Of a DNA stretch of 64,000 nt, positions 45,651-61,434 are shown piece after piece (positions within the stretch are counted from its first letter, which is position 1; each line of letters starts with the position of its first letter). The DNA is from Tunturiibacter empetritectus (GTDB taxonomy: Bacteria; Acidobacteriota; Terriglobia; Terriglobales; Acidobacteriaceae). The stretch lies in the NCBI RefSeq assembly GCF_014201375.1, contig NZ_JACHDZ010000003.1:496001-560000 (forward strand), in the 5' to 3' direction. The notes beneath the pieces were generated by a model. That model ran no database searches. It was not told the DNA's origin and worked only from the letters and a program-made list of their open reading frames with translations. Position numbers and translations under genes: made by a program.

Positions 45651-48218
45651 ATGCCCAAACGCATGACCCTGGCCCTCCTCGCCATCTCCACAATTTATGC
45701 CACTCTTCCGGTTACAATCTCCGCGCAAGCCATCGCCGCCAAAACCACCGGCATGAAGCACCTCGACGGCTACCTTCCGCTCGACTGGGACGCGAAGACC
45801 GGCAAGCTCTATCTCGAGATCCCCCACCTCGACGCCTCCAGCCGCAGCCCCGACCTCCTCTACACCCACTCCCTCCCCTACGGCACCGGCTCCAACGACC
45901 TCGGCCTCGACCGCGGCCAGATCTCCTCCGGCGAAATCCTCCACTTCGAGCGCACCGGCCCCAAGGTCCTCCTCGTCGAACCCAACCAGCACTTCCGCTC
46001 CACCTCCGCCGACCCATCCGAGCAGCTAGCCGTCCATCAGTCCTTCCCCGAGTCCGTCCTCTTCGGTTTCAAGGTCGAAGCAGAAGACCCCAGCGGCGCA
46101 GTCCTCATCGACGCGACAGACTTCTACCTCCGCGACGCCCACGGCGTAGCCGAAATCCTCACCACCACCAAGCAAGGCACCTACAAACTCGACCCCACTC
46201 GCTCCACCATCGCCCTCGACGCCACCAAAGCCTTCCCCAAAAATACCGAAGTAGAGTCCATCCTCACTTTCACCACCGAAGACCCAGCCAAAGCAGAGTT
46301 CGTCACCAACGTAACCCCCGACCCCCACGCCCTCACCCTCCGCGAGCACCAATCCTTCATCGAGCTCCCCGGCCCCGGCTTCACCCCCCGCCGCTTCGAC
46401 CCCCGCGCCGGCTACTTCCCCACCACCTATCGCGACTACGCCGCCCCGCTAGGCGCCCCGCTCGACCAGCACTTCATCATCCGCCACCGCCTCCTCAAAA
46501 AAGATCCCTCCTGCAACCACGCCTGCGAAGCCGTAACCCCCATCCAGTACTACGTCGACCGCGGCGCCCCCGAGCCCATCCGCACCGCCCTCCTCGAAGG
46601 AGCGCGCTGGTGGGATCAAGCCTTCCAGGCCGCAGGCTGGGCCACCGGCACCTTCCGCGTCGACCTCCTCCCCGCCGACGCCGACCCCATGGACATACGC
46701 TACAACATCATCCAGTGGGTCCACCGCTACACCCGCGGCTGGAGCTACGGCTCCGCAGTCGTCGACCCGCGCACCGGCGAGATCCTCAAAGGCAACGTAA
46801 CCCTCGGCTCCCTCCGCAGTCGCCAGGACTACCTCATCGCCGAAGCCCTTTTGAGCCCCTACGTCAACGGCAAACCCCTCCCGCCGGCAAACGATCCCAT
46901 GCTAGCGATGGCCCTAGCCCGCACCCGCCAGCTAGCCGCGCACGAGACCGGCCACACCCTCGGCCTAGCCCACAACTTCGCCGCAAGCTCCTTCCCCCAC
47001 ACCCCTGATGAATCCGTCTCCGTCATGGACTATCCCCACCCCTACATCACGCTCAACAAAGAAGGCATCCCCACACTCACCGAAAGCTACGGCGTCAACA
47101 TCGGCATCTGGGACAAGGTCGCCATCGACTACGGCTACCGCGAATTCGATAGCGCCAGCGGCAAACAGAGCAACGCCAGCGGCAAACAGAGCAACGCCAG
47201 CGGCAAGCGCAGCGAAGCCAAGCACCCAGAAGAAGACCCCGCCGCCCTCAACGCCATCCTCGAAGCCAGCGAAAAAACCGGCCTCATCTACATCACCGAC
47301 GAAGACGCCCGTCCCCTCGGCGGCACACACCCACACGCCCACCTATGGGACAACGGTACCGACCCCGCCGATGAACTAGACCGCATCCTCAGTATCCGCA
47401 CAGCCGCCCTCGCCCGCTTCAACGAAAACGCCATCACCACAGGCACTCCCATGGCCCAACTCGAAGACACCCTCGTCCCCCTCTATCTCCTCCACCGTTA
47501 CCAAACCGAAGCCGCAATCAAAGAGATCGGCGGCCTCGACTACCGCTACAACCTCCGCGGCGACAACCAACCCGCGCCCGAGATCGTCCCCTCCGCCGAA
47601 CAGAAGAAAGCCCTCACCGCCGTCCTCAAAACCCTCTCCCCCGACACCCTCACCCTCCCCGAATCACTCCTGAAGATCCTCCCCCCACGCCCCCCCGGCC
47701 TCCCACGCACCCGCGAGTCCTTCCCCTCCGAAACCGGCCTCACCTTTGACCCCATCGCCACCGCCGAGTCCGCCGCCGACCTCACCCTCAACGTCCTCCT
47801 CGACCCCGCCCGCGCCTCACGCCTCGTCCAGTACCACATGCGCCTCGCCGACGCCCCCTCCCTCCGCGGCGTCCTCGAAGCCATCTCCAAAACCACCGCC
47901 GAGCGCCCAGAAGGCGGCCACACCATGTCTTCCGAAGTAGAGCGAGCCGTAGAGTTCCGCGCCCTCGAAGCCATGCTCTCCCTCGCCGTCAACCCGCAAG
48001 CCTCCACGCAAGCACGCGCCATCGCCCGCTCTCACATCAACGATCTCCTCAAGCAGTGGACCATCGCCGCCCCACTCACCGACACCGCCGAAGCCATCCA
48101 CCGCGCCGCACTCATCGACCGCATCAACGACTTCAACCGCGACCCCGCCAAGTTCATCCCCGCCAAGCCCATCGAAGCCCCACCCGGCATGCCCATCGGC
48201 ACCGAAGACGCCTTCTGA
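45651..48218 (+). CDS. Secreted zinc metalloprotease with HExxH motif (DUF4953/DUF5117-like)
   Basis: Secreted protein of 855 residues with signal peptide 1-25 (LALLAISTIYATLPVTISAQA). The zinc motif HETGHTLGLAHNF begins at His431, an HExxHxxGxxH metzincin-type site. N-terminal DUF5117-like and middle DUF5118-type strands are followed by the C-terminal DUF4953-like domain (PASTQARAIARSHINDLLKQ). Likely periplasmic or extracellular protease; substrate unknown. It carries an internal tandem repeat at 47156-47216. Relatives occur in acidobacteria and Bacteroidetes. Confidence 0.88.
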   Translation: MPKRMTLALLAISTIYATLPVTISAQAIAAKTTGMKHLDGYLPLDWDAKTGKLYLEIPHLDASSRSPDLLYTHSLPYGTGSNDLGLDRGQISSGEILHFERTGPKVLLVEPNQHFRSTSADPSEQLAVHQSFPESVLFGFKVEAEDPSGAVLIDATDFYLRDAHGVAEILTTTKQGTYKLDPTRSTIALDATKAFPKNTEVESILTFTTEDPAKAEFVTNVTPDPHALTLREHQSFIELPGPGFTPRRFDPRAGYFPTTYRDYAAPLGAPLDQHFIIRHRLLKKDPSCNHACEAVTPIQYYVDRGAPEPIRTALLEGARWWDQAFQAAGWATGTFRVDLLPADADPMDIRYNIIQWVHRYTRGWSYGSAVVDPRTGEILKGNVTLGSLRSRQDYLIAEALLSPYVNGKPLPPANDPMLAMALARTRQLAAHETGHTLGLAHNFAASSFPHTPDESVSVMDYPHPYITLNKEGIPTLTESYGVNIGIWDKVAIDYGYREFDSASGKQSNASGKQSNASGKRSEAKHPEEDPAALNAILEASEKTGLIYITDEDARPLGGTHPHAHLWDNGTDPADELDRILSIRTAALARFNENAITTGTPMAQLEDTLVPLYLLHRYQTEAAIKEIGGLDYRYNLRGDNQPAPEIVPSAEQKKALTAVLKTLSPDTLTLPESLLKILPPRPPGLPRTRESFPSETGLTFDPIATAESAADLTLNVLLDPARASRLVQYHMRLADAPSLRGVLEAISKTTAERPEGGHTMSSEVERAVEFRALEAMLSLAVNPQASTQARAIARSHINDLLKQWTIAAPLTDTAEAIHRAALIDRINDFNRDPAKFIPAKPIEAPPGMPIGTEDAF
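47152..47218. repeat. In-frame 21-base minisatellite inside metalloprotease gene
   Basis: Tandem units of AGCAACGCCAGCGGCAAACAG encoding SNASGKQ occur about two and a half to three times (GCCAGCGGCAA at 47154, 47175 and 47196), ending with a degenerate GCCAGCGGCAAGCGCAGC. The length is a multiple of three, so expansion or contraction changes the loop length without a frameshift. The encoded Asn/Ser/Gly/Lys loop is poor in bulky residues, typical of a flexible linker after the catalytic domain. Confidence 0.8.
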
Positions 48219-48344
48219 TTCCCCCGCAGAGACCGAATCTCCAGAAGATCCACAAGGAAATCCCACAAACGATACACCACCTCCCGAACCCATCTGGACT
48301 TAGCAATAGAAGAAATCTCTCTTCTTGAATATATTCAACTCAAC

Positions 48345-49961
48345 ATGAACAACTCGGCCGCTGCGCTCCTGCCTTCCTCTTGGTTATCCCTCTTTGTCTT
48401 AGCCATCCTCGCCTCAACCAGCTTTGCACAACCGGCTCCCTCTGCGAAAAATGCTTCGTGCGCAATCGATCATGCTGCCCCAACCGCAACCGAGTTGGCG
48501 TTTTACCGTCAAGACTATAAAAAGTCGGGCGACCTCGCCGCCGCCGAATACAAGGCCGACCCCAAAAACAGCCGCAGCCGGCAGCTTGAGATTGACAGCC
48601 TGATCGGTCAGGGCAAACTCGACGAAGCCAGAAAAAAAACCGATGCATGGACCCTCGCAGAGCCGGCAGATCCTGTCGCGATTGTCACCGCCGGCGAACT
48701 CCGCCACTCTGAAGGAGACTGGCTCGAGTCCTATGCGCTCATGCTCAAAGCGCTCAAGCTCGACCCCTGTCTCCCCGCCGCCTACGAGGGGCTGGCCGAC
48801 TATGAAGCGCTCGCCGGCTATCACGCCACCGCCCAAAAACACCTCGCACTTGCCCACCAACTCAGCCCCAATAACGAGAACATCCGCTTCGCCTGGATCA
48901 ACTCCCTGAATAACGAGCAGTCCGCGACCGAACTTGCAAATTTTGTCCACGAAGCCAAAGCGTTAGACGACAAGCGCAAGACTGCCCTGGCCAGGCGAAT
49001 CGAAGAGCAAGACTCCGGCCTCAAAAATCGTTGCGAACTATCTGCTGCAACCGGCCCTCTGCGAATTCCGATGACACCCGTCTACGGCGCCATCGGTATC
49101 GACCACTACGGCCTCGAAATCGCCTTCAACGGACACAAGCGCACCCTCCAGATCGACACAGGCGCCAGCGGGTTTCTCCTCACGCACAGCAAATTCTCCG
49201 GAATGGGTCTGCAAAAGCTGAGCTCCTCCCGCGTCTGGGGCTTCGGCGATCAGGGGTCCAACGCCATCGAACAATTCACCGCCGCATCCGTTCGTATCGG
49301 AGGCATTGAGTTCAAAAACTGCAACGTCGGTGCTCTGGAAAACTTCAGCGTCATGGGTGGAGGTCACATCGGCCAGGCCCTCGATACGATCGACGGTCTC
49401 GTCGGCACTGACATCTTCTCGCGCTACCTCGTCACAGTCGATTACGTAAAGCATGAGATTCGCCTTGAGCCGTTGCCGCAACCCTCCTCCGCTCCTACAG
49501 CGCCACTGGACGCGCTCAGTGGTGACCCGGCAAATGACCTCAGCAGCTTCGACCGCTTCAAAGCGCCATCCATGCGGAACTGGACCAGCATCTACCGCCG
49601 CGGCCACCAGCTCATCATGCCAGTCGTTATCAACAGCGGCAAGCCGACACTCTTTATTGTCGATACTGGTTCCTTCACCAACTTGATCGACACGGACTTC
49701 GCGAAGCAAGTGACCCGGACAAAGGACTCCATAACCTTCGTGCAGGGGCTCTCCGGAGTCAGCCAACTGAAAGAAGCTGGCAGCTTCACCGCAGACTTCG
49801 CTGGCCTTCGGCTACCCGTCACCGGGATGGACTCGCTCAACCTGTCACGATTCGACGGAGTTCACGGCTTCCTCGGCTACCCCACCCTCGAACAGCTCGT
49901 CATGCACATCGACTATCGTGACAACCTCGTCCTGTTCGAAGCACCCAACGCACACAAGTAA
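48345..49961 (+). CDS. Secreted retropepsin-type double aspartyl protease with TPR region
   Basis: Protein of 538 residues. Signal peptide about 1-28, followed by TPR-like helices (about 45-225: KLDEARKKTDAW, SYALMLKALKLDPCLPAAYEG, TAQKHLALAHQLSP). Then come two retropepsin-like halves. The first has LQIDTGASGF (Asp271) and DGLVGTDIF; the second LFIVDTGSFTN (Asp440) and HGFLGYPTLEQL. Two DTG sites in one chain can form a complete bilobal active site, as in pepsins, without dimerisation. Probably periplasmic. The substrate is unknown. Confidence 0.84.
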   Translation: MNNSAAALLPSSWLSLFVLAILASTSFAQPAPSAKNASCAIDHAAPTATELAFYRQDYKKSGDLAAAEYKADPKNSRSRQLEIDSLIGQGKLDEARKKTDAWTLAEPADPVAIVTAGELRHSEGDWLESYALMLKALKLDPCLPAAYEGLADYEALAGYHATAQKHLALAHQLSPNNENIRFAWINSLNNEQSATELANFVHEAKALDDKRKTALARRIEEQDSGLKNRCELSAATGPLRIPMTPVYGAIGIDHYGLEIAFNGHKRTLQIDTGASGFLLTHSKFSGMGLQKLSSSRVWGFGDQGSNAIEQFTAASVRIGGIEFKNCNVGALENFSVMGGGHIGQALDTIDGLVGTDIFSRYLVTVDYVKHEIRLEPLPQPSSAPTAPLDALSGDPANDLSSFDRFKAPSMRNWTSIYRRGHQLIMPVVINSGKPTLFIVDTGSFTNLIDTDFAKQVTRTKDSITFVQGLSGVSQLKEAGSFTADFAGLRLPVTGMDSLNLSRFDGVHGFLGYPTLEQLVMHIDYRDNLVLFEAPNAHK

Positions 49962-50174
49962 AAAAGAGACGTAGGACCAGCCGATTCTTCCTGTTAGGTT
50001 GAGACCGTACAAAACTCCCTCGCCGCAAACTCACGCCACCAAAACACCACGTTGCCACCATCAATCACCACCCAAACACCACTACAACGCCCAGCCACAG
50101 ACGCCATCCCGGTCAATGAATTCGATCCCGCCGGGGAATCGGTAGCCAGCTTCGCTAAGAGCAAACCTGCCAAA

Positions 50175-50439
50175 AATCTTGTCAAGCCCCATGCCTGCGA
50201 AAACCCGCGTCAACACAGGCGATTCGCGTGGCGTATTCACCCAGCCCAACTCTCTATAATTAAAAGTAGGAGGTTGAGCTACTATTCTTTGTTGACACGA
50301 AAGAGAAGGTAAATTGCTGATTTCAGATATTTTAGGCACAACCCATTGCGAATGAATACTTTGCAGACACATACCTTCTGCAACTAACAGAAACCAAAGT
50401 ACTTCCCTGCAAAATACCCCGAGGGGGGAGGGGGGTACC
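50175..50439. repeat. Dispersed intergenic element A, copy 1
   Basis: About 265 bases between the aspartyl protease and the mutase subunit gene. It opens AATCTTGTCAAGCCCCATGC, contains AAAACCCGC then GATTCGCGTGGCGTATT (50221-50237), an A+T-rich middle with TTGCAGACACATACCTTCTGC, and ends with a run of G and GGTACC (50434-50439), 46 bases before the next start codon. The same order is found at 63115-63394. It has no coding potential I can see. It could be a mobile non-autonomous repeat or a regulatory leader. Confidence 0.72.
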
Positions 50440-50485
50440 TACCCGGCCACCCGCCAGATATACTCGCTCCTCGGTGCCTAACTCA

Positions 50486-50902
50486 ATGCCCAACACGCCT
50501 CCAATCCGCGTTCTCGTCGCAAAGCCTGGCCTCGACGGCCACGACCGCGGCGCTAAAATCATCGCCCGAGCCCTCCGCGACGCCGGCATGGAGGTCATCT
50601 ACACCGGCCTCCGCCAGACCCCCGAGATGATCGTCTCCGCCGCCATTCAGGAGGACGTCGACTGCATCGGCCTCTCCATCCTCTCCGGCGCCCACAACGT
50701 CATCGTCCCCCGCATCACCGCCCTGCTCCGCGAGCAGAAGGCCGAAGACATCCTCCTCGTCCTCGGAGGCACCATCCCCGACGAGGACCAGCCGAAACTA
50801 AAAGAAAACGGCGTCTCGGCCATCTTCGGACCGGGAACGCCGCTTGAAACCACCATCACCTTCATCCGCGAGAACGTAAAACCGCGAACCCTTGCTCTTT
50901 GA
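50486..50902 (+). CDS. Methylmalonyl-CoA mutase B12-binding subunit
   Basis: Cobalamin-binding domain protein of 138 residues. It contains the base-off B12 motif DGHDRG at 17-22 with His19 as the lower cobalt ligand, then [19 protein letters not shown] (SxL..G) and [12 protein letters not shown] (GG-type) motifs. This is the small, separately encoded C-terminal part of methylmalonyl-CoA or related acyl-CoA mutases; the catalytic subunit is not in the window. It works in propionate/valine/isoleucine catabolism. ATG 50486 preferred over GTG 50474. The downstream convergent SDR is separated by repeat B. Confidence 0.93.
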
Positions 50903-50910
50903 AAACTCAT

Positions 50911-51104
50911 GTCCTGCCAGACGGGCGCCCTGCGCGGGCAGCGGTCACTTCGTGACGTGTATACCTTGTCTTGGCAGGATGATATGCATCGGTCCTCCCG
51001 TTGGTCGGAATCAACTTCCCTCGCGACCCACGGGAGCGCCAACCGAAGGGGTACACAAGTCACGAAGTGACCGCCCTCCGCGCAGGAGGCCCGTCCGGCA
51101 GGAC
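50911..51104. repeat. Giant palindromic element B, copy 1, between convergent genes
   Basis: 194 bases that fill the gap between the mutase subunit stop (50902) and the SDR stop (51113). The arms are complementary over their first about 54 bases with few mismatches: GTCCTGCCAGACGGGC... at the left with ...GCCCGTCCGGCAGGAC at the right, then CACTTCGTGAC with GTCACGAAGTG. An inner stem CTCCCGTTGGTCG pairs with CGACCCACGGGAG. It can fold into one long hairpin in either strand. A second copy lies at 60587-60765. Probably a dispersed BIME/REP-like element that also terminates transcription. Confidence 0.9.
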
Positions 51105-51112
51105 AAAAGTCT

Positions 51113-51850
51113 TTACCAGGGCAGCGCCTTACCAAGGTGAAGAAACTCCCCATTCGGCCCACTGTCCTGCAACGTAGCCAGCTCCACCGAGGTCTTCGCC
51201 CCAGTCACGATATCAAGCTGCGCCCCCTCGCCACCCATATCCGTCTTCACCCACCCCGGGTGCGCCGAGTTCACCTTGATCTTCGTATCCTTCAACTCAT
51301 GCGCAAGATGAATCGTGAACGAGTTGAGCGCCGACTTCGAAGCATCATAAGCAAACGTCTTCGCATCGTAGATAAACGACCCCGGCGTAGCATGCAGCGT
51401 ATTCGAACCCAGAATGCTCGAAAGATTCACAATCCGCCCACCCAGGCTCTTCTTCAAAAGAGGCAGCAACGCCTGAGTCAGCCCTACCACCGCGAAAAAA
51501 TTCGTGTTGAACGTCTTCTGTAGAATCTCCTTCGATGTCTTCGTGGTCTCATTGCCTTTACGGCCGTCGAGAAAGATTCCCGCATTATTGACCAGAATAT
51601 CGAGATGTCCATAGTCCTTCTCAAGCAACTTCGCAACCTCAGCATAGTCTGCTGAATTCTCCATATCGAGCTTGACCGCCCGCGCTTCAACGCCATCCTT
51701 CTTCAACTCCGCCACCGCAGCTTCGCCCTTAGCCTCATCGCGAACGCCGATCAACACGGTAATCCCAAGCTTCCCAAGCTGCCGTGCGGTCTCCAGGCCA
51801 ATCCCCTTATTACCACCCGTAATCAGCGCAACCTTCTTGTCAGTACTCAT
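51113..51850 (-). CDS. SDR family NAD(P)-dependent oxidoreductase
   Basis: Short-chain dehydrogenase of 245 residues in the carbonyl-reductase-like branch: ALITGGNKGIGLETARQLG near 8-26, DILVNNAGIF near 85-94, catalytic Ser in IVNLSSILG, and YDASKSALN (Tyr, Lys). Substrate unknown. Last gene of the minus-strand run that begins with the carboxyltransferase at 56284, though the 38-base gap to the thioesterase gene and general role allow an independent function. Confidence 0.87.
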   Translation of the reverse strand: MSTDKKVALITGGNKGIGLETARQLGKLGITVLIGVRDEAKGEAAVAELKKDGVEARAVKLDMENSADYAEVAKLLEKDYGHLDILVNNAGIFLDGRKGNETTKTSKEILQKTFNTNFFAVVGLTQALLPLLKKSLGGRIVNLSSILGSNTLHATPGSFIYDAKTFAYDASKSALNSFTIHLAHELKDTKIKVNSAHPGWVKTDMGGEGAQLDIVTGAKTSVELATLQDSGPNGEFLHLGKALPW

Positions 51851-51887
51851 CCAAACTCACCTCATCAGCGATCTGACTGCAAACCAT

Positions 51888-52337
51888 CTACCCATGGGAT
51901 GCCCGAGACCCGAGATACGCCGCAAAACGTTCCGCATACTTTGGCGGCAGGCCCCTCTTCTTCATGTCCTTGCCCACCACCACATGCACCGTCTCGCCCT
52001 CACACAGCAACGCGCCATCCCCAATCCGCAGCACCTTATACCCGAACTTGATCACCGCGCCACGAGCCGCCACCAACCTCGTCTCCACCACCAACTCATC
52101 GTCATACCGGGCCGGCGCGCGATATCGCACATGCACGTCCACCACCGCAATCCCGCAGCCCTCCTCCACCTCCATTCGCTTGTAGTCCAGCCCCATGCAC
52201 CGGATCAACTCCACCCGCCCCACCTCAAACCAGATCAGGTAGTTCGAGTGATACACCACGCCCATCTGGTCGGTCTCGGCATACCGCACCCGTACCCGGG
52301 CCTCCCCCACACGCTTCTCTGCGACAACTTCAATCAT
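51888..52337 (-). CDS. 4HBT/YbgC-like acyl-CoA thioesterase
   Basis: Hot-dog fold thioesterase of 149 residues: RVRYAETDQMGVVYHSNYL near 15-33, the YbgC/FadM signature in which the Asp is catalytic, then FEVGRVELIRCMGLDY and VDVHVRYRAPARYDDELVVE. Hydrolyses acyl-CoA esters in the cytosol. In this run, with hydratase, lyase and carboxylase genes, it might recycle CoA from branched acyl-CoA intermediates. Complete. Confidence 0.9.
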   Translation of the reverse strand: MIEVVAEKRVGEARVRVRYAETDQMGVVYHSNYLIWFEVGRVELIRCMGLDYKRMEVEEGCGIAVVDVHVRYRAPARYDDELVVETRLVAARGAVIKFGYKVLRIGDGALLCEGETVHVVVGKDMKKRGLPPKYAERFAAYLGSRASHG

Positions 52338-52414
52338 CCAGACAGTCTACCTAATCTGAACCACAATTCAGATCGATCTGATCCGGTCGCAACAGCTACA
52401 AATCCCCGCAACCA

Positions 52415-53197
52415 TCAGCCCCTGCCCCAAACCGGCTTCCTCTTCTCCAGAAATGCCGCCACCCCCTCGCGAAAATCATGCGTTCCTCTGGCCTCTGCAT
52501 TCGCCGCCAACGCCTCCGCAACCGCCGCATCCAGCCACGCCTTATTCTGCGCCCTCAGCAGCCGCTTCGTTGCCGACATCGCCTCCGGACTATTTGCCCT
52601 CAACATCCCCACCAGCTCCAGCGTCCGCGCCGTCAGCTTCTCCGCGTCAACCACCTCATTCACCAACCCCAACCGCTCCGCCTCTTCGCTGGTAAAGATC
52701 CGCCCCGTCAGCAGCAGATCCCGCGCCGGCTTCTCTCCAATCTGCAACACCAGAAAAGCCGACACCACCGCCGGCACAAATCCGATCTTCACCTCCGTAT
52801 ATCCGAACTTCGCCCCCGGCACCGCAAGCGTAAAGTCGCACATCGTCGCCAGACCCGTCCCCCCGGCAATCGCAGCTCCATGTACCGCCGCAATCGTAGG
52901 CTTCGGCAGCTCATACAAGGTTCGAAACAGCCGCGCAATCCGCTCCGCGTCCGCAGTATGTTCCGCAGCGGACTTATCGTTCATCCTCTGCAGCGCGCTC
53001 AAATCCAACCCGGCACAAAACGCCTCCCCCGCGCCCGCGAGCACCACCACGCTGCAGTCGCTCGCGGCAGTCTCTTCCATCGCCTGAATCAACTCCTGCT
53101 GCATCTCCGGTGTCATCGCATTGCGCCGCTCAGGACGATTCAAAGTAATCATCCGAACCCCGTCCACGTCCGTAACCAAAATAGTTACATAACTCAC
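52415..53197 (-). CDS. Enoyl-CoA hydratase/isomerase (methylglutaconyl-CoA hydratase candidate)
   Basis: Crotonase family, 260 residues. Oxyanion-hole segments are GAGEAFCAGLDLSALQ near 58-73 and AIAGGTGLATMCDFTLAV near 105-123, with the catalytic Glu in KFGYTEVKIGFVPA. Downstream of HMG-CoA lyase and a biotin-enzyme carboxyltransferase gene, it is likely the 3-methylglutaconyl-CoA hydratase of leucine breakdown (LiuC/AtuE). The function is inferred from context. The start overlaps nothing; the upstream lyase ends 65 bases away. Confidence 0.85.
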   Translation of the reverse strand: MSYVTILVTDVDGVRMITLNRPERRNAMTPEMQQELIQAMEETAASDCSVVVLAGAGEAFCAGLDLSALQRMNDKSAAEHTADAERIARLFRTLYELPKPTIAAVHGAAIAGGTGLATMCDFTLAVPGAKFGYTEVKIGFVPAVVSAFLVLQIGEKPARDLLLTGRIFTSEEAERLGLVNEVVDAEKLTARTLELVGMLRANSPEAMSATKRLLRAQNKAWLDAAVAEALAANAEARGTHDFREGVAAFLEKRKPVWGRG

Positions 53198-53262
53198 AAA
53201 AAACCCCCTAACTCTCTACTCGACCAGCCCTGCTAACTAGCTGATTCGCTGACTCGCTACGT

Positions 53263-54162
53263 TCACTGCACCCTCTCCCCATACTTCCGCAATATCTCCG
53301 CGCTAGCCGCCAGTAACCCATCCAGCGGCCGCAGTGGCTCCAACTCCGCTCCCAACGCCTTCAACTCCGCCAGCAGCACCTCCGTCGCGACATTTCCCAC
53401 CAGCGCATCCTGGGCAAACGGACAACCACCCAGCCCGCCAATCGCCGCATCGAACCGCCTGCACCCAGCCTCATACGCCGCACGAATCTTCTCTGCCGCC
53501 TGGTCCGGCCTTGCATGCAGATGCACCCCAATCTCAATCCCCTCATGCACTGCCAGAACATCCGCCACCAGATCGCTGACCTGTTTCGGCGTCGCCAGCC
53601 CCACCGTATCCGCCAGCGAGATCTGCGTCACCCCGTTATCCGCCAGCAGATCGCACGCCGCCACCACTTCGTCAATATCCCACGCCTCGCCATAAGGATT
53701 CCCAAACGCCATCGAGATGTACGCCACCACATCCATTCCCGCCTTGTACGCCAACGTGCCCACCTTCTCCAACTCCTCCAGCGCCTCCTCCGGCGTCTGA
53801 CTCTGATTCCGCTGCAAAAACGTCGGCGACACCGAATAAGGAAACCCCAGCGTCTGCACGCTCCCCGTCTTCACCGCCCGCTCGGCACCCTTCCCATTCA
53901 CCACAATGCCAATAATCTCGACATCATCTGGCGGATCAAGATACTCCAGCACCAGCTCCGAATCCGCCATCTGCGGCACCGCCGACCGCGAAACAAAGCT
54001 CACCGCATCGATATGCTTGAACCCCGCCGCAATCAACACCCGCAGATAATCCGCCTTTACCTCCGCTGGCATATTCTTCGGCAAGCCCTGCCAAGCATCC
54101 CGCGGACACTCAATAATCTTCACCAAGTTACTCACTCCCTTGTCGTCCTCTTTCTCTGTCAC
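53263..54162 (-). CDS. mvaB: Hydroxymethylglutaryl-CoA lyase
   Basis: HMG-CoA lyase, 299 residues, final step of leucine degradation: cleaves HMG-CoA to acetoacetate and acetyl-CoA. TIM-barrel family signature: VKIIECPRDAWQGL at the start with metal-binding/catalytic residues, FKHIDAVSFVSRSAVPQMAD, GVHLHARPDQAAEK with the zinc His pair, and GGLGGCPFAQDALVGNVATE with the active-site Cys. Start is GTG at 54162, overlapping the upstream hypothetical gene's stop (GTGA). Homologous names: mvaB/liuE. Confidence 0.93.
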   Translation of the reverse strand: MTEKEDDKGVSNLVKIIECPRDAWQGLPKNMPAEVKADYLRVLIAAGFKHIDAVSFVSRSAVPQMADSELVLEYLDPPDDVEIIGIVVNGKGAERAVKTGSVQTLGFPYSVSPTFLQRNQSQTPEEALEELEKVGTLAYKAGMDVVAYISMAFGNPYGEAWDIDEVVAACDLLADNGVTQISLADTVGLATPKQVSDLVADVLAVHEGIEIGVHLHARPDQAAEKIRAAYEAGCRRFDAAIGGLGGCPFAQDALVGNVATEVLLAELKALGAELEPLRPLDGLLAASAEILRKYGERVQ

Positions 54163-54581
54163 TGAACGACAATGACAGATTTATTCATTCGTGGCGATCC
54201 AGTCCAATCCTCCACCACACCATTCTTAATAGAAGAGCCTTCCATTCCTCCGAAAACAAAAACAAAAGCGTGAGGACCGAAGCTTGCATGTGCACCAGCC
54301 GTGGCGGAAGAAAGAACTATTACAAACCGCTTCAAGACACTAGCTCGAATTTTCCTAGCGGGAAAGGTCACCTTGCCTGTGAGATCAGTGATCAAATCAG
54401 CCTCACTACCTTTAGATTCGGCAGAGTAATCCCGATAGCTTTCACGAACTTTCGCGCCGCTAATCGAATTGTTTGATGTATCTACGACAGAGACCTCCCA
54501 AAGTGGAGCCTGCAGCGACTCGAACGGATAGACGAAGAGAAGAATCACGATAAGCGCTATGACAATTTGAAACTTCCTCAC
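54159..54581 (-). CDS. Small exported protein embedded in leucine operon
   Basis: Protein of 140 residues that I do not recognise. One N-terminal hydrophobic segment (residues 5-18, IVIALIVILLFVYPF) could be a signal or anchor. The next part is like a Pro/Ser carboxypeptidase-regulatory or Ig domain (WEVSVVDTSNNSISGAKVRE, TDLTGKVTFPARKI). It overlaps the carboxyltransferase and lyase genes by four bases on each side, so it is coupled to both, yet its base use is clearly less GC-rich than theirs and no metabolic role is obvious. Possibly a foreign insertion that kept the coupling. Confidence 0.6.
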   Translation of the reverse strand: MRKFQIVIALIVILLFVYPFESLQAPLWEVSVVDTSNNSISGAKVRESYRDYSAESKGSEADLITDLTGKVTFPARKIRASVLKRFVIVLSSATAGAHASFGPHAFVFVFGGMEGSSIKNGVVEDWTGSPRMNKSVIVVQ

Positions 54582-56284
54582 GTCTGCAAAACCCCCGGAT
54601 TAAACCTAGCCACATCCGGATTCAAACTAGCCGCCTCCAATGCCGTCATCAGCACCTCCCGCGTCTTCACCGGATCAATAATCGAATCAATCCAAAGCCT
54701 CGCCGCCCCGTACCTCGGATCGGCCTGCGCATCATACGACGACTTAATCTCGTCATACAGCGCCTTCTTCTCCGCATCCGACAGCACCTTCCCCCCACGC
54801 TCCATCTGCTTCGCCCTCACCTCCGCCAGAGTATTCGCCGCCGAAGCCCCACTCATCACCGCATACCGAGCCGTAGGCCACGCAAACAAAAACCGCGGAT
54901 CATAAGCCTTTCCGCACATCGCATAATGCCCCGCCCCAAAACTCCCACCCACAATCACCGTTATTTTGGGCACAACCGAAGTGCTCACCGCCGAAACCAT
55001 CTTCGCCCCGGCACGAATAATCCCACTCCACTCCGCATCCTTCCCCACCATGAACCCATTCACATCATGCAGAAAGATCAACGGCACCAGACTCTGATTG
55101 CAATCCATAATGAATCGCGCCGCCTTCTGCGCACTCTCCGTATAGATCACCCCGCCGAACTCCGTCCGCTTCTCTCCCGCCTGCGGCCCCACAGCAACCG
55201 TCTGCGACTGGTGCACCTTCTGATTCGCCACAATCCCCACAGCCCGTCCGCCAATTCGAGCATATCCACACAACACCGTCCGCCCAAAATCCTCCTTGTA
55301 CTCATCGAACTCCGAGCGATCCACGATCCGCGCAATCACCTCGCGCATGTCATACACATTGCTCGCAGCCTTCGCCGGATCAGGATCGATCAACCCATAC
55401 AGATCCTCCGCGGCAAACTTCGGCGCATCCTTCGCTGCGTCGTACCCCACGACACTAAACGGGGCCTTCGCCGGCGAGCCAATCTTCCCCACCAGAGAAC
55501 GTAACCGTGCCAGGCACATATGATCATTCGGCTCTTTGAAATCCACAGTGCCCGAGATCTCCGCGTGCATCGCCGCCCCGCCCAGCTCCTCAGCGTCGGT
55601 CTTCTGCCCGATCGCCGCCTGCACCAGCGACGGCCCCGCCAGAAACAACCCCGATCCCTCCGTCATCAACACCGTATCCGTCATCACCGGCAGATAAGCC
55701 CCGCCCGCCACGCACATCCCCATAATCGCCGTAATCTGCGGCACCCCCAGCGAGCTCATCACCGCGTTATTGCGAAACACTCTGCCGAAATCATCCGTAT
55801 CCGGAAACACATCCTCCTGCAGCGGCAGAAACACCCCCGCCGAATCCACCAGATACAGAGTCGGAATCCGATTCTCCAGCGCAATCGTCTGCGCCCGCAG
55901 CACCTTCTTCGCCGTCATCGGAAAAAACGCCCCCGCCTTCACCGTCGCGTCATTTGCGACGATCATGCACAGCCGCCCACTCACCCGCCCCAGCCCGGTC
56001 ACCACCCCCGCCGCCGGCGCGCCGCCATACTCGCCATACATCCCATACGCCGCCCATAGCCCCAACTCCAGAAACTCACTTCCCTCATCCAGCAGCAGCG
56101 CCAGGCGCTCCCGCACTGTCAGCCGCCCCTTGGCCCTCTGCGCCTCCGCAGCCTTCGCCCCGCCACCCAGCCGAATCTCATCCTCCGAGACCCGCAACGC
56201 CGCCATCAACACCTGCAACGCCGCACGATTCGCACCGAACCGCGCCGCCTTCACATCCAGCTTCGACCCCAACGAACTCTCCAA
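54578..56284 (-). CDS. Acyl-CoA carboxylase carboxyltransferase (methylcrotonyl-CoA-type)
   Basis: Beta subunit of a biotin-dependent carboxylase, 568 residues, with the two crotonase-type halves. N half: RERLALLLDEGSEFLELGLW, GVVTGLGRVSGRLCMIVAND, KAGAFFPMTAKKVLRAQTIA, and SAGVFLPLQEDVFPD. C half: FIMDCNQSLVPLIFLHDVNG, VIVGGSFGAGHYAMCGKAYD, and RFLFAWPTARYAVMSGASAA. Methylcrotonyl-CoA carboxylases are about this length. With the lyase and hydratase genes it fits MccB/LiuB in leucine catabolism; the biotin-carrying alpha subunit is not in the window. Confidence 0.9.
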   Translation of the reverse strand: MESSLGSKLDVKAARFGANRAALQVLMAALRVSEDEIRLGGGAKAAEAQRAKGRLTVRERLALLLDEGSEFLELGLWAAYGMYGEYGGAPAAGVVTGLGRVSGRLCMIVANDATVKAGAFFPMTAKKVLRAQTIALENRIPTLYLVDSAGVFLPLQEDVFPDTDDFGRVFRNNAVMSSLGVPQITAIMGMCVAGGAYLPVMTDTVLMTEGSGLFLAGPSLVQAAIGQKTDAEELGGAAMHAEISGTVDFKEPNDHMCLARLRSLVGKIGSPAKAPFSVVGYDAAKDAPKFAAEDLYGLIDPDPAKAASNVYDMREVIARIVDRSEFDEYKEDFGRTVLCGYARIGGRAVGIVANQKVHQSQTVAVGPQAGEKRTEFGGVIYTESAQKAARFIMDCNQSLVPLIFLHDVNGFMVGKDAEWSGIIRAGAKMVSAVSTSVVPKITVIVGGSFGAGHYAMCGKAYDPRFLFAWPTARYAVMSGASAANTLAEVRAKQMERGGKVLSDAEKKALYDEIKSSYDAQADPRYGAARLWIDSIIDPVKTREVLMTALEAASLNPDVARFNPGVLQT

Positions 56285-56431
56285 CTTCCATCCTCCGATA
56301 ACCGGCCAATCACAAAAGCGTGCCAGCCTAGCATCTTAGCTGCACATTACGTTCACCGTCTCGTCCGAACCCGTGTACCCTATCTTCGAACTGAAACCAG
56401 AGATAGTTCAGACATCCCACGGAGACACGGA

Positions 56432-56905
56432 ATGAACCTCCGAACCAAACTCGCACAGTTGATCCTGATCTCCGGCGCGCTTCTCCTGCCTGTCCACGGC
56501 ATCGCTCAAACTCCCACCGTCGACCTCGACAAATCCATCGACCTCTCCGTCGGAAGCCACGCGAAAGTTCAGCAGCTCCTCTTCAACCTCCAGCAAGCCG
56601 TCGCCCAGCACAACCCCGCCGCCGTCGCCGCCCTCGTTCACTACCCCATCAAGGTCAACCCCGGCAAGCGTCCCATCACCATCAAATCCCCAAAGGCCTT
56701 CATCAAGGACTACGACCGCGTCATCACCTCCGACATCTCCTCGGTCATCCTGAAACAAAAATACGACGCTCTCTTCGTCAACTCCCAGGGCGTCATGCTC
56801 GGCGACGGCGAAGTCTGGATCACCGGCTTCTGTCAGGACAAAAATTGCAAAAGCTCCGACATAAAGATCGGCACCATCCAGGACACCACAAACCTCAAGC
56901 CATAA
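56432..56905 (+). CDS. Exported protein of unknown function (SnoaL/NTF2-like candidate)
   Basis: Secreted protein of 157 residues: signal peptide about 1-25 (LILISGALLLPVHGIAQ). The mature part (QQLLFNLQQAVAQHNPAAVA, ALVHYPIKVNPGKRP, KAFIKDYDRVIT, QKYDALFVNSQGVMLGDGEVWITGFC) has the helix-strand pattern of periplasmic NTF2/SnoaL-like small domains and a Cys pair (FCQDKNC). Function unknown. Divergent from the carboxyltransferase gene, convergent with nothing. The pncA gene follows 93 bases later. Confidence 0.75.
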   Translation: MNLRTKLAQLILISGALLLPVHGIAQTPTVDLDKSIDLSVGSHAKVQQLLFNLQQAVAQHNPAAVAALVHYPIKVNPGKRPITIKSPKAFIKDYDRVITSDISSVILKQKYDALFVNSQGVMLGDGEVWITGFCQDKNCKSSDIKIGTIQDTTNLKP

Positions 56906-56998
56906 TCAGGTCCGGGTGCCCCATATCTCGATTTCGAGATGTGGGCATCGTCCGAAGGACGACCGTACTCTTCACTTGTGCTCTACCATCAAGTCACT

Positions 56999-57640
56999 AT
57001 GCAACTCCAACCCACCGACGCACTCCTCGTCATCGACGTCCAAAACGACTTCATGCCCGGCGGCGCATTGCCCATCCCAGACAGCGACGCCGTAGTCCCC
57101 CTCATCAACGCCCTCGCAAAAAAGTTCGACCACGTCATCCTCACCCAGGACTGGCACCCCACCCAACACATTTCCTTCGCCACCACCCACGCCGCAACTC
57201 ATGCGAACGCCCAGCCCTACGAGACCATTCAGGCCCCCTACGGTCCCCAGACCCTCTGGCCCGAACACGTCCTCCAACACACCGAAGGCGCAGCCTTCCA
57301 TCCCGCCCTCTCCATCCCCCACGCCGAACTCATCCTCCGCAAAGGCTTCCGCCGCCACATCGACAGCTACTCCGCCTTCCTCGAGAACGACCACACCACA
57401 CCCACCGGCCTCGCTGGGTACCTCCGCGAGCGCAACCTCACCCGCCTCTTCCTCTGCGGCCTCGCCTACGACTTCTGCGTCCGCTACTCGGCCCTCGACG
57501 GCCACGTCCTCGGCTTCGAAACGGTAGTCCTCGAAGACGCCACCCGCCCCGTCAACCTACCCGGCTCAGTCGATGCAACAAATCAGTCCTTCTCTGCGAA
57601 CAGAATCGCAAAAATTCCAAGCAGCGAACTCGGTGTCTAA
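56999..57640 (+). CDS. pncA: Nicotinamidase/pyrazinamidase
   Basis: PncA, 213 residues, converts nicotinamide to nicotinate in the NAD salvage route. Seen: LLVIDVQNDFMPGG with catalytic Asp13, LTQDWHPTQHISF (metal Asp and His), ILRKGFRRHIDSYSAF with the catalytic Lys and Tyr, and CGLAYDFCVRYSALDG with the nucleophilic Cys. I start at ATG 56999; the 20-codon upstream part of the open frame is unlike the family. The last 20 residues (ATNQSFSANRIAKIPSSE) deviate from the usual ending, as if the 3' end was replaced where the next gene starts. Confidence 0.94.
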   Translation: MQLQPTDALLVIDVQNDFMPGGALPIPDSDAVVPLINALAKKFDHVILTQDWHPTQHISFATTHAATHANAQPYETIQAPYGPQTLWPEHVLQHTEGAAFHPALSIPHAELILRKGFRRHIDSYSAFLENDHTTPTGLAGYLRERNLTRLFLCGLAYDFCVRYSALDGHVLGFETVVLEDATRPVNLPGSVDATNQSFSANRIAKIPSSELGV

Positions 57641-58021
57641 ATGACAGAACACCTCACCGCTTCTGAAAGATCCTCTTCGGACAACTGGAAGGAAGTAACT
57701 GCGACAGTATTATCCAGCACTTACCATCCTGCCCGTCTCCGCGATTTGTCTGATGACTATCAGGACAATAGTTTTTTCGTGGTCAGTTTCAGTTACACCG
57801 TCGACGGAAAGCTTTTCGTCGACGAATACGAACGCAGCGAACCGCTGGATAGAGGGCACGAAATCGTGATTCTCTATAACTCTTCAAAGCCAGGCGAAAA
57901 CAACCTTTCCGAAGTAGCTCCCACATCAAGATCTCGCATTGTTGGTTGGGTTGGAGGGGCGATTCTTGCGGCACTCATCATCTATCTCGCCAAACATTTC
58001 GACCTGCCTGATGAGTTTTAA
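57641..58021 (+). CDS. DUF3592-like membrane protein
   Basis: Protein of 126 residues with an N-terminal beta-rich extracytoplasmic/cytosolic domain (VTATVLSSTYHP, FFVVSFSYTVDGKLFVDE, VILYNSSKPGENNLSE), typical of DUF3592-like sequences, and a C-terminal membrane helix (VGWVGGAILAALIIYLA). Its ATG follows the pncA TAA without a base between. Function unknown. Its composition is lower in GC than the pncA gene around it. The last four bases overlap the convergent HD gene. Confidence 0.68.
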   Translation: MTEHLTASERSSSDNWKEVTATVLSSTYHPARLRDLSDDYQDNSFFVVSFSYTVDGKLFVDEYERSEPLDRGHEIVILYNSSKPGENNLSEVAPTSRSRIVGWVGGAILAALIIYLAKHFDLPDEF

Positions 58022-58638
58022 GAGCTAAGAGACTCGTTCCCTTCCAGCCCCAACTCCCCCGCCCGCGCCTGCATCGCCCGCAGACAGTTCCCCACATGCT
58101 CGTCCACACTCAACCCCAACAACTCCGCCCCATCCGTAATATCCTCCCGCTTCACTGCCCGCGCGAACGCCTTATCCTTCATCTTCTTCTTTACTCCCGC
58201 CACCTCCACCTCGTGAATCGACTTCGAAGGTTTCACCAGCGCACACGCCGTCAAAAAACCCGCAAGCTCATCGCAGGCAAACAACGCCTTATCCAGATGC
58301 GACTCCCGTGGCGTTCCCGAGTAGTCCGCGTGCGCCAAAATCGCATGCACCACCTCCTCCGGCCATCCCAACTCCCGCAGATGCCTCACTCCGACAAACG
58401 GATGCTCCTCCAGCGAAGGATGCCGCTCATAGTCCATATCGTGCAGCAGCCCAGCACTCGCATATCTCCCGACAAACTCCGCAGCCTCTTCCCCCAAAAG
58501 TCCCAACCGCGAAGCCTCCATCACGCCATAGGCCTCCGTGCAAACCGAAACCGCCAGCCCATGCTTCCGCAGACTCTCTCCCTTGGTCCACTCCTCCAAC
58601 AACGCCAGCGCCTGCCCTCGCCCAAAACCATCGCTCAT
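58018..58638 (-). CDS. HD domain metal-dependent hydrolase-like protein
   Basis: HD-superfamily protein of 206 residues. The metal motif is GLLHDMDYERHPSL near 68-81, preceded by KHGLAVSVCTEAYGVMEA (first His) and followed by HAILAHADYSGTPR, matching HDIG-type hydrolases annotated as hydrolase/phosphohydrolase. The C-terminal half is helical (DKAFARAVKREDITDGAELLG). Substrate unknown. I use ATG 58638 (MSDGFGRG). The gene tail overlaps the DUF3592-like gene by four bases. Confidence 0.83.
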   Translation of the reverse strand: MSDGFGRGQALALLEEWTKGESLRKHGLAVSVCTEAYGVMEASRLGLLGEEAAEFVGRYASAGLLHDMDYERHPSLEEHPFVGVRHLRELGWPEEVVHAILAHADYSGTPRESHLDKALFACDELAGFLTACALVKPSKSIHEVEVAGVKKKMKDKAFARAVKREDITDGAELLGLSVDEHVGNCLRAMQARAGELGLEGNESLSS

Positions 58639-58868
58639 GCAATAACTCCTCCTCTCCAAATCTAACCCGATCCCCGCCTATCTCCTCCCCGCTGAGCCAG
58701 CAAGTTACCACTTTGGTTCCTTTCCGGCTTTTTCCGACATTTGTGGAGTCTTTAGCGGTTTTTTTGTTGACTCACCCGAGTCCCAGTGTCAATCTAGGCA
58801 CATCATATGTTCCGTTATCGGACATGTGCTGGGTCCTTGCTCTGGGTCCCTTCGCAACAACACAACTT

Positions 58869-59402
58869 ATGGCAACCATGATGGCACCTGTCGAACAACG
58901 TGAGGTACTACGTTGCGACCACTGCAGTTTGGTGCAGTTTCGGACAGCCAATGCGCTGTGCCGCCGCTGCCACAAATGCCTCGAGGTCGAAGAGCCCGAA
59001 CCAGCTCCCGCACCACTGGCGCTGGTTCCCCCACCATCAACCCAGGAAGGCGGCCTGCAGGTAGCCAGCGCCGTTCGAGACCTGCGCCACGTGCGCAATC
59101 TCTCGCAGCGTCAGCTTGCAGCTCGCATGGGAGTACCACGCACCTACATCTCCAAGATCGAGAATGGCAAGGCCATGCCGACCCTGTCCTCCCTCGATCG
59201 CCTCGCTCGCGCACTCCAGGTCGACATCTCCGCCCTGCTGCGCGACTCCAACACCCGCCATCGCGACGAGACCGCGGTCCTGATGACCGATCCCTTCCTC
59301 GCCGAGATCGCCACCTACACCTCGCAACTCGACGAACTACAGCGGTCCATCTTCCTGAATCATGTTCGCGAACTGGCCGCAGGACGCCGTCGTACCGCGT
59401 AA
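58869..59402 (+). CDS. Zinc-ribbon XRE-type HTH regulator
   Basis: DNA-binding protein of 177 residues. An N-terminal zinc ribbon (Cys16, Cys19, Cys31, Cys34 in LRCDHCSLVQF and LCRRCHKCL) is followed by a Pro/Ala-rich linker and an XRE HTH domain (SQRQLAARMGVPRTYISKIE, near 93-112) with a following dimer helix, then an extra helical part (LDELQRSIFLNHVRELAAGR). The ATG at 58869 gives a compact domain order; the longer frame upstream is shadow. Regulates an unknown promoter. Confidence 0.85.
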   Translation: MATMMAPVEQREVLRCDHCSLVQFRTANALCRRCHKCLEVEEPEPAPAPLALVPPPSTQEGGLQVASAVRDLRHVRNLSQRQLAARMGVPRTYISKIENGKAMPTLSSLDRLARALQVDISALLRDSNTRHRDETAVLMTDPFLAEIATYTSQLDELQRSIFLNHVRELAAGRRRTA

Positions 59403-59586
59403 ATAGCGTCCCTGCAACACCGGCCCGCAACACCGCTCCACGACCTCCAGGGAGGCGTCAGCATTTCACGTGACGCCTTCCTCTCCTTCTCCCCTCAACT
59501 CCCCGCCTCCCTCGCGCGAAAGATGTATAGGGCGTTCATTGCGCGCCCCCCAGCGGTGTGCTAGCGTCAATATCTGCGAGGTCGCT

Positions 59587-60573
59587 TTGCGCGCATCATC
59601 ACCCCTACCGAACTCCAGCCGCGTCCCCAATCGCAGCCATGAGCTCTCTGCCGAAGAGCAGAGCGTCTACCGGCAGCTGGATCCAGCAAAAATTCCCCAG
59701 CACGTCGCCATCATCATGGACGGCAACGGCCGCTGGGCCGGAAAACGTGCCCTCAAGCGCTTCCTCGGCCACCAGAAGGGCGCCGAGTCCGTTCAGTTCG
59801 TCGTAGAGACCGCCTCGCGCATCAACCTGCCCTGGCTCACCCTCTACGCCTTCTCGCTCGAAAACAATCTCCGCCGCCCCAAGTCCGAAGTCAGCTTCCT
59901 CATGAAGCTTCTCAAAAGCTACCTCGTCGGAAACGTCAAACGCATGAACGACAACAACGTTCGCATGGCCTACATCGGCCGCACCCACGACCTGCCGCAG
60001 GAGGTCCAGGACACCATGCAGTGGGCCTCGGAGTCCACGGCCAAGAACACCGGCACTACCCTCACCCTGGCCCTCAACTATGGCGCCCGCTCCGAGATCG
60101 TCGACGCCGTCCGCACCATCCTCACCGACCTCACCACCGAAGCCCACACCCGCGGCTGTTCCGTCGAGGATCTCCTCGGAGCCGGCGCACTCGAGTCCCT
60201 CGACGAGCCCACCATCGCCCGCGCCCTCTACACCGCGCACATGCCCGACCCCGACCTCGTCATCCGCACCTCCGGCGAGCAGCGCATCTCCAACTTCCTC
60301 CTCTGGCAGATCGCCTACTCCGAGATCTTCGTCACCGACCGCCTCTGGCCCGACTTCAACGGCCTTCACCTGCTCGAGGCCATCAACGCCTACCAGCATC
60401 GCGAGCGCCGATTCGGTGGCCTCGGCGAAAGCTTCACCGACGAAGACCTCAACAACCTCGAGCCCGCCGAAGAAGTAGCCGCCGAGATCAAGGACCACCT
60501 CATCCCCAAATCGGACGCCAAAGCCGAGAGCAAATCAGAAGCAAAGCCCGACGCCGTCCTCACCCGCCGCTAG
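59587..60573 (+). CDS. uppS: Undecaprenyl diphosphate synthase
   Basis: Cis-prenyltransferase making the lipid carrier of peptidoglycan and LPS. Seen: HVAIIMDGNGRWAGKRALKR with the catalytic Asp, GAESVQFVVETASRIN, LTLYAFSLENNLRRP, LNYGARSEIVDAVR, DPDLVIRTSGEQRISNFLLWQ and FVTDRLWPDFNGL. The C-terminal tail is Lys/Glu-rich. The start is uncertain: no ATG lies in frame before the core. I prefer TTG 59587 with GAGG upstream; the GTG at 59470 is longer. A typical location with cdsA and dxr. Confidence 0.92.
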   Translation: MRASSPLPNSSRVPNRSHELSAEEQSVYRQLDPAKIPQHVAIIMDGNGRWAGKRALKRFLGHQKGAESVQFVVETASRINLPWLTLYAFSLENNLRRPKSEVSFLMKLLKSYLVGNVKRMNDNNVRMAYIGRTHDLPQEVQDTMQWASESTAKNTGTTLTLALNYGARSEIVDAVRTILTDLTTEAHTRGCSVEDLLGAGALESLDEPTIARALYTAHMPDPDLVIRTSGEQRISNFLLWQIAYSEIFVTDRLWPDFNGLHLLEAINAYQHRERRFGGLGESFTDEDLNNLEPAEEVAAEIKDHLIPKSDAKAESKSEAKPDAVLTRR

Positions 60574-60586
60574 CAAGCTAACAATA

Positions 60587-60765
60587 GTCCTGCCGGACGG
60601 GCCTCCTGCGCGGAGCGCGGGCGTTCGCACGCCTTTTTAAAGCTTCGCGTGGTCCTCCCGTTGGTCGGCACAATCATCCCTCGCGACCAACGGGAGCGCC
60701 AAACCGAAGGGGTATACACGTCACGAAGTGACCGACCTCCGCGCAGGAGGGCCGTCCGACAGGAC
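60587..60765. repeat. Giant palindromic element B, copy 2, between convergent genes
   Basis: 179 bases between the uppS stop (60573) and the PadR stop (60789). Ends GTCCTGCCGGACGGGCC and GGCCGTCCGACAGGAC pair, as do CTCCTGCGCGGAG/CTCCGCGCAGGAG and CTCCCGTTGGTCG/CGACCAACGGGAG. The inner part of the left arm is replaced by a different stretch containing a small terminator (60620-60638). Right half nearly identical to copy 1, including GGGGTATACACGTCACGAAGTGACC. Confidence 0.88.
60620..60638 (+). terminator. Intrinsic terminator within element B copy 2
   Basis: GGCGT (60620-60624), loop TCGC, ACGCC (60629-60633), then TTTTT. A 5-base stem followed by a T run, 46 bases past the uppS stop on the plus strand. 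Short, so moderate strength at best. Confidence 0.5.
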
Positions 60766-60788
60766 ACCCGCGTCTCGCGCCGTGATAG

Positions 60789-61391
60789 TCACGCCCTCTC
60801 AATCTGCTTGGCAGCCGCGTCGATGATGTCCGTAATCGCGTGAATCTGTTCCGTCGTCAGCGGCCCCTTCTTCATCCGCAACGACATCCGGAAGTTCTCG
60901 ACAGCGCGTTCGATCTGAGGAGAACGACCACTCCCCTGCTCACTGCGAGCATGGTCCATCCTCGCGAAGATCGCATCTACCATCGCCTTGTTCTCGGCGA
61001 GTGACTTTGCCCCTTCTTCCGTGATCGTATAAAGCTTCCGCGCGCCCTCGGAGACCACGGTCGCGTGCCCCATCTCCTCGAGCATCGTCAGCATCGGATA
61101 CACCACGCCCGGACTCGGCGCATACATTCCGCCCAGCCGCTCCTGGATCGACTTGATGATCTCGTAGCCATGGCTCGGCTTCTCCGCAATCTGCTGCAGG
61201 ATCACGTAGCGAAGATCGCCCGCGCCGAAGAACCGCATCGGGCCTCCCCGTCCTCCGCGAAAACCATGCCGCCCTCCGCCAAAGTCGCCAAATCCACCTC
61301 GTTGATCGTCCCTGTGTCTCTCACCACGGCCTTCTTCTCTGCCATGGCAACCTCTGTAGTGCTCGTGTAAGTGCTCGTGTAGTTTTCTCAT
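60789..61391 (-). CDS. PadR family regulator with His/Gly/Arg-rich N-terminal extension
   Basis: PadR winged-helix repressor, 200 residues. Winged HTH domain from about 52 to 130: LRYVILQQIAEKPSHGYEII, GMYAPSPGVVYPMLTMLEEMG, ARKLYTITEEG. C-terminal helix for dimerisation (LTTEQIHAITDIIDAA). The first 51 residues are rich in His, Arg and Gly (LHEHLHEHYRGCHG, GGRHGFRGGRGG), suggestive of metal binding or disorder. It has an adjacent palindrome upstream and is divergent from cdsA, so it likely autoregulates. Family members sense phenolics or drugs. Confidence 0.86.
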   Translation of the reverse strand: MRKLHEHLHEHYRGCHGREEGRGERHRDDQRGGFGDFGGGRHGFRGGRGGPMRFFGAGDLRYVILQQIAEKPSHGYEIIKSIQERLGGMYAPSPGVVYPMLTMLEEMGHATVVSEGARKLYTITEEGAKSLAENKAMVDAIFARMDHARSEQGSGRSPQIERAVENFRMSLRMKKGPLTTEQIHAITDIIDAAAKQIERA

Positions 61392-61410
61392 GCCATGGAT
61401 AGTACTAAGA

Positions 61411-61434
61411 TATATCTTGATAAGTCAAGATATA
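61411..61434. promoter_or_regulatory. Palindromic operator (PadR-like) in padR-cdsA gap
   Basis: Perfect inverted repeat with 10-base arms: TATATCTTGA (61411-61420), centre TAAG, and TCAAGATATA (61425-61434). It lies 20 bases upstream of the PadR start within the 100-base divergent gap. AT-rich dyads of this kind are typical PadR-family operators. Likely autoregulation. Confidence 0.7.

Follow-up and report, generated by a model that had tools for sequence, protein, structure and literature searches.

In the genome of Tunturiibacter empetritectus, the space between two convergent genes is filled almost entirely by one giant palindrome, which raises the question whether such a structure serves the ends of the two genes or belongs to a kind of repeat that is merely found there. 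The whole stretch of 64,000 nucleotides that was analysed is called the window in the following; it contains a second copy about 10 kb downstream. A first-pass annotation had read the element as a bidirectional terminator or as a REP-like mobile element specialised for convergent ends, possibly as an RNA with its own function. According to the analyses described here, both copies probably belong to a non-autonomous family of interspersed palindromic repeats of the REP/BIME/ERIC type with upkeep at the DNA level. They appear to represent a new family within a known kind of bacterial repeat and not a dedicated gene terminator.

Structure and local hairpins of the element

Copy 1 (50911..51104, 194 bp) has a long left and a short right arm; neither the two full elements nor the modules of copy 1 carry a strand assignment. 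The giant palindrome described initially is real: its ungapped inverted arms (50902-50965 and 51050-51113, 64 nt) are 83% complementary and the RNA fold of -134.3 kcal/mol (z -12.5) was equalled by none of 200 shuffles. The flanking genes encode a protein with a B12-binding domain (PF02310, 50486..50902, plus strand, start codon uncertain) and a short-chain dehydrogenase (PF00106, 51113..51850, minus strand). Their stops at 50902 and 51113 are convergent as reported, with a spacing of 8 nt each and not 9. Copy 2 (60587..60765, 179 bp) has two short arms, the left one being of the type II defined below, and lies between genes for a member of the undecaprenyl diphosphate synthase family (PF01255, 59587..60573, plus strand, start codon uncertain) and a PadR-like regulator (PF03551, 60789..61391, minus strand). 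Its setting had been called identical; the stops are indeed convergent, but they are 13 and 23 nt away. The ungapped arm pairing of copy 2 extends over 34 nt (88%), and its fold of -115.5 kcal/mol (z -7.0) was likewise equalled by 0 of 200 shuffles. Neither copy was matched by Rfam covariance models in the window part 47000-64000 at E-values up to 1.

A full copy of 180-195 bp consists of two inverted arms, each with a chain of the hairpins H1, H2 and H3, which flank and are joined by the central stem H5; frequently one arm exceeds the other by about 15 nt. The consensus of H1 is GTCC[TGCC]GGAC (loops in brackets), and H2 is a 4-bp stem with the loop TGCGC. In type I arms H3 reads GTCAC[TTC]GTGAC followed by GTATAC, in type II arms it reads GGCGTTCGCACGCC, often with TTTTT thereafter, and short arms carry a small H4, CC[TTC]GG or GC[TTC]GC. 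In copy 1 the left end (50911..50926) comprises the H1 hairpin region GTCCTGCCAGAC plus GGGC and corresponds to the family consensus; it is followed by H2 (50927..50939, GCCC[TGCGC]GGGC) and H3 (50944..50956, GTCAC[TTC]GTGAC). The central stem H5 (50995..51036) is formed by CTCCCGTTGGTCG and CGACCCACGGGAG. The right arm contains H3 (51059..51071, GTCAC[GAA]GTGAC), H2 (51076..51088, CTCC[GCGCA]GGAG) and the right end (51089..51104) with GCCC and the H1 hairpin GTCC[GGCA]GGAC. The H2 stems of the two arms are unlike each other while each is complementary in itself, an example of local covariation. A terminator-like module of copy 2, GGCGT[TCGC]ACGCC followed by TTTTT, was read from the sequence at 60620..60638 on the plus strand.

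Within 26 half-elements the local helices were paired in 96.7% of the cells, with 41 double-change cells against 13.5 in shuffles and a covariation score of 0.179 against 0.081. Two of five covariation measures were no better than in shuffles, which counts against the reading as a REP-like repeat; pairs with a double change numbered 6 against 4.3 (a value reached in 45 of 500 shuffles) and further pair types 17 against 16.8. In the 78 full copies, 132 of 156 arms have an H2 whose two sides are complementary to each other, and five stem types are common. The H2 stem was alike in both arms of 12 copies, compared with 11.3 expected from random pairing, and H3 was identical between arms in 19 of 78 copies compared with 20.4, where type II arms were parsed roughly. 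Since the stems of the two arms match only at the random level, the giant pairing from arm to arm is a side effect of having two inverted arms that resemble each other. The preserved feature is the short local hairpin and not the giant palindrome.

The five common H2 stems are each one base pair off CCCC/GGGG, which is itself absent from the 20 stem types listed. Moreover, at least five arms in 20 further stretches of the same genome bear an extra hairpin of the type CCCCACAAAC...GTTTGTGGGG; at the loci L396, L397, L400, L401 and L415 such extra, apparently covarying hairpins lie within the H2 region and are of the types CCCCACAAAC, CCCCGCAAAC and CCCCACGAAC.

Spread of the family and placement beside stop codons

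Both copies are members of one dispersed family with at least 130 distinct places in the genome of origin (G000). In a DNA search of this genome all of the 40 scored candidates (out of 231) belonged to the family, and a covariance model of the half-element, built from 26 copies, gave 150 scored hits (2676 candidates) that correspond to 130 distinct places, 78 of them with both ends intact. As only 150 of 2676 candidates were scored here and at most 62 per genome across the genus, copy counts are lower bounds. A 15-base end motif (up to two mismatches) occurred 316 times compared with 36 for the reversed control, and in the 20 further stretches chosen around it family modules were seen at 26 places, of which 24 lie outside the 130.

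The covariance-model scan of acidobacterial genomes, suggested by the first-pass annotation, was carried out with the half-element model and yielded matches in 37 of 60 genomes of the genus; 23 had no match, some of these being incomplete. In a sample of the phylum nine of 199 genomes were matched, all from the same genus (1 of 119 genera). The DNA search gave matches in 24 of 37 same-genus genomes, the own genome included, and in none of 24 others. The family is genus-restricted. In named genomes at least 91 stretches matched, and the 80 listed come from Edaphobacter lichenicola strains, Granulicella sp., Terriglobus MAGs, Acidobacteriaceae KBS 89 and MAGs whose names are less precise. Among the papers listed, none was seen from its title or abstract opening to report the family for Edaphobacter or Granulicella.

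The placement relative to genes depends on calls by a home-made gene predictor (about 80% coding) in place of an annotation, which is a point against the preferred reading. The element midpoint was outside predicted genes at all 130 places, of which 53 are convergent, 64 co-directional and 13 divergent gaps. The background of 222 gaps of at least 30 bp, taken from 20 spaced stretches and the window, comprised 33 convergent, 142 co-directional and 47 divergent gaps. Enrichment at convergent 3' ends, as expected for the REP-like alternative of the first-pass annotation, is thus borne out (53/130 versus 33/222, p = 9e-8). Its wording "specialised for convergent ends" is too narrow, however, as 64 of the 130 places are co-directional and 33 of 42 full copies there lie at most 15 nt from the upstream stop. 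Under uniform placement of the co-directional copies 9.5 would be expected, with a maximum of 20 in 10,000 draws, and 15.1 with the 20 nt nearest the start excluded. A distance between -5 and 15 nt was found for 92 of 131 intact ends that face a stop and for one of 74 that face a start. Overall, a stop is found no farther than 20 nt away at 102 of 130 places, the hit edge being used where an end is missing. Among the named relatives (80 listed loci with 91 exact matches to an arm, 27 of which have the second end close by), the corresponding figures for the 20 full copies that remain after removal of redundant ones and of those at locus edges were 19 of 25 stop-facing and 1 of 15 start-facing ends. 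The stop codon is a stronger placement rule than the convergent gap.

Site history and the origin of stop proximity

For a comparison with sister species, ortholog flanks were viewed in 30 of 60 genomes per protein. Three sites (A, B and C) offered an empty comparison, the third not being a clean insertion. Site A, the site of copy 1, is filled in G000, G014 and G031 with 7-8 nt to each stop and carries a truncated copy in G065. It is empty in G071 and G028, where 9 nt separate the two stops, and G002, G078 and G077 have no element there either. The dehydrogenase stop stays put, and the B12-binding gene has other final codons in filled than in empty genomes. At site B, the site of copy 2, the distances to the two stops are 855 and 336 nt in G031, 13 and 358 nt in G014, and 13 and 23 nt in G000; a truncated copy lies in a gap of 458 nt in G065, and G071 has a gap of 1269 nt without an element. 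From this series it follows that first one flank and then the other lost DNA, and this stepwise shrinkage of the gap means that flank loss produces at least some of the stop proximity. At site C the element lies 6-7 nt past the stop equivalent to position 62355 of the window; it is present in G031 only, in which about 0.7 kb of the adjacent DNA of G000 is missing.

The sites seen in sister species are mostly shared and give no sign of present mobility, which counts against the preferred reading: besides A and B, site D is common to G031, G065 and G014, and site E to G065 and G014. At these fixed sites stems were swapped and some cores apparently flipped. Orthologous copies are on average 86.6% identical (nine pairs, 81.8-90.9), compared with 83.8% (sd 3.8, 400 pairs) for paralogous copies. 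The flipped orientation fitted best in six of the nine orthologous pairs, clearly so for G000 versus G014 and G031 at site B and for G065 versus G014 and G031 at site D. In the other two pairs it was ahead by just 2.1 and 1.3 points, and site D is not self-consistent.

Taken together, we propose that the copies spread in ancestors of the clade, that insertions elsewhere may have been purged and that flanking DNA would have been lost until stop codons were reached. The hairpins would be kept complementary and shuffled by recombination or by template switching during replication, not by RNA selection, and effects on mRNA 3' ends, termination at type II arms included, would be incidental. Quasipalindrome template switching has been reported to homogenise the arms of inverted repeats, to invert spacers and to maintain hairpins (PMC8604942, PMC8794818), and it may act on these elements. 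A more far-reaching version can be put forward tentatively: the element might itself be a focus of deletions, whose hairpins provoke adjacent losses that are halted by selection at the stops, so that convergent gaps are trimmed down to the element, and whose stems are meanwhile altered by template switching, so that they covary in the absence of selection on an RNA.

The stop proximity could alternatively reflect selection for a function at the 3' end. It appears unlikely to us that the element is a functional bidirectional terminator or 3'-end stabiliser that selection holds beside stops, although the tight spacing after the stop and the convergent enrichment fit such a role and terminators are scarce at other 3' ends (4/142 co-directional and 6/62 convergent in a simple scan). 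Also in its favour, 29 of 205 intact-ended arms carry a T run behind a GC hairpin. These arms are spread over 29 of the 130 copies, one per copy, so that no copy has a T-run hairpin in both directions, and most arms lack a T run altogether. They do not favour the stop side either (11/29 versus 79/154 type I arms, p = 0.23), and a preferential placement of terminator arms at stops was rejected. The 23 genus genomes without a model match, some of them incomplete, also speak against this reading. As a general role, bidirectional termination finds no support. The idea of an RNA with its own function fared no better, as the sense strand showed no excess of G.U over A.C among non-Watson-Crick pairs (14 G.T and 25 A.C in stop-adjacent arms; 15 and 16 in the other arms), which argues against selection at the RNA level.

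Alternatively, the insertion could recognise the stop codon or the termination zone, the adjacency thus being set from the beginning. The homology between filled and empty sites reaches the stop codon on the dehydrogenase side of site A and at site C, and the empty site A offers just 9 nt between the stops. On the other hand, at copy 2's site the element of G031 lies far from both stops, the proximity in G014 and G000 accompanies the loss of flanking DNA, and a weak outer motif is seen both beside stops and away from them. We regard stop-targeted insertion as improbable. The outer motif, AGA..cT, is situated just beyond the element ends, with the T adjoining the end in 77-83%; since it is present in both situations, some of the flank may belong to the element.

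Mobilisation and relation to known repeats

No mobilising enzyme was found with PF01797 in the genus genomes or with Pfam between close pairs of elements, and this counts against the preferred reading as a REP-like repeat. Movement as a REPIN or BIME, with a RAYT (Y1 transposase) working on hairpins in single-stranded DNA, would agree with the head-to-head arms, the preserved local hairpins, the lack of a clear target duplication and a 3'-end bias like that of known REPs (PMC3733652). The own genome contains one intact PF01797 gene and one fragment, and other element-rich genomes such as G005, G019, G031, G065, G071, G076 and G082 have 1-3 matches. However, the 14 kb around the RAYT gene of G000 are free of the element motif, PF01797 had no match in G002, G014, G027 and G028, each with at least 62 element hits, and it had 4-6 matches in G009, G013 and G066, which are without element hits. 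Over the 60 genus genomes PF01797 showed no clear association with the element, and no RAYT gene flanked by the repeat was found, flanks having been read at the G000 gene; RAYT mobilisation was rejected and seems hardly probable, although a diverged HuH enzyme could escape the PF01797 model. The intact gene itself (L033:6148-6663, minus strand; about 442148-442663 of contig C1) has a truncated copy nearby, and the repeated text KPKGMVGFYR..., common to several ORFs between and beside the two, suggests that another repeat family is present locally.

Least probable is a MITE derived from a DDE insertion sequence whose ends match, since apart from the inverted ends TGTCC...GGACA neither a clear target duplication in the 78 full copies nor a transposase domain in the 17 proteins encoded between 12 close element pairs was found. 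A parent transposase with these ends may lie outside the close pairs and the listed part of the 316 end-motif places, within which none was seen. In the flanks of the full copies no word of six or more letters was shared and 4-mers recurred in at most two copies per offset; 2-mers reached 14 copies at one offset compared with 4.9 by naive chance, which ignores base composition. An A precedes the left end in 5 of 78 copies, so that TA abutting this end is rare. The close pairs numbered 15, of which 12 enclosed predicted genes, one did not, and two fell outside any single stretch. Pfam hits were obtained for 14 of the 17 proteins, and a composite transposon between nearby copies was dismissed in the absence of a transposase among them. 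One protein of 151 aa between two elements (L125:2709-3164, minus strand; about 118562-119017 of contig C4 in G000) had a marginal match to Recombinase (PF07508, 21.8 bits, cut-off 21.1).

The reading as a palindromic repeat maintained at the DNA level suggests that hairpin upkeep in DNA, and not RNA function, can be the source of strong covariation and of a huge predicted fold; structure-based RNA discovery should take this as a warning. With well over 100 copies, filled and empty sites in sister species, shrinking gaps and swapped stems, the family also constitutes a countable system that bears on the reason why palindromic repeats come to lie next to stops.

Among known families, REPs are described in PMC3733652 as single palindromes of 20-40 bp with a GTAG/CGTC tag, in which the CGTC stems have 8-9 bp; conv-REPs are found no more than 20 bp from the 3' ends on both sides, and uni-REPs close to the 3' end of the upstream gene. 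Since REPs elsewhere thus adjoin convergent 3' ends and upstream stops, the stop-adjacent location is a known property of this kind of repeat. Like REPs, BIMEs and REPINs, our elements are dispersed intergenic palindromes near gene 3' ends with inverted pairs and compensatory changes (PMC3733652, PMC3116915), and two inverted repeats surround a spacer at the 78 of 130 places with both ends. They differ in having three hairpins per arm and a central stem within 180-195 bp, and no linkage to a RAYT was found. CGTC is present at the H1 edge, yet no stem of REP length carries the tag, the stems of H1 (4 bp), H2 (4 bp) and H3 (5 bp) being parts of a larger composite. ERIC, YPAL and Correia/NEMIS are likewise palindromic repeats with many intergenic copies, of roughly 100-170 bp (PMC2229807); by description they have target duplications, TA in the case of ERIC, whereas here none is clear, and the arms are modular with swapped stems. 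High-copy palindromes are also known from acidobacteria as the TIR repeats of TIRYT genes and the class-3 TnpA-Y1 structures, about 600 of the latter in Solibacter (PMC3733652, PMC6006769); these flank Y1 genes, beside which our family was not found. Quasipalindrome template switching, by contrast, is a mutational process and no repeat family, and is proposed here as the mechanism of upkeep. What is unusual about the present family is the composite architecture with independent arms, the swapping and apparent flipping, and the shrinkage of gaps at fixed sites.
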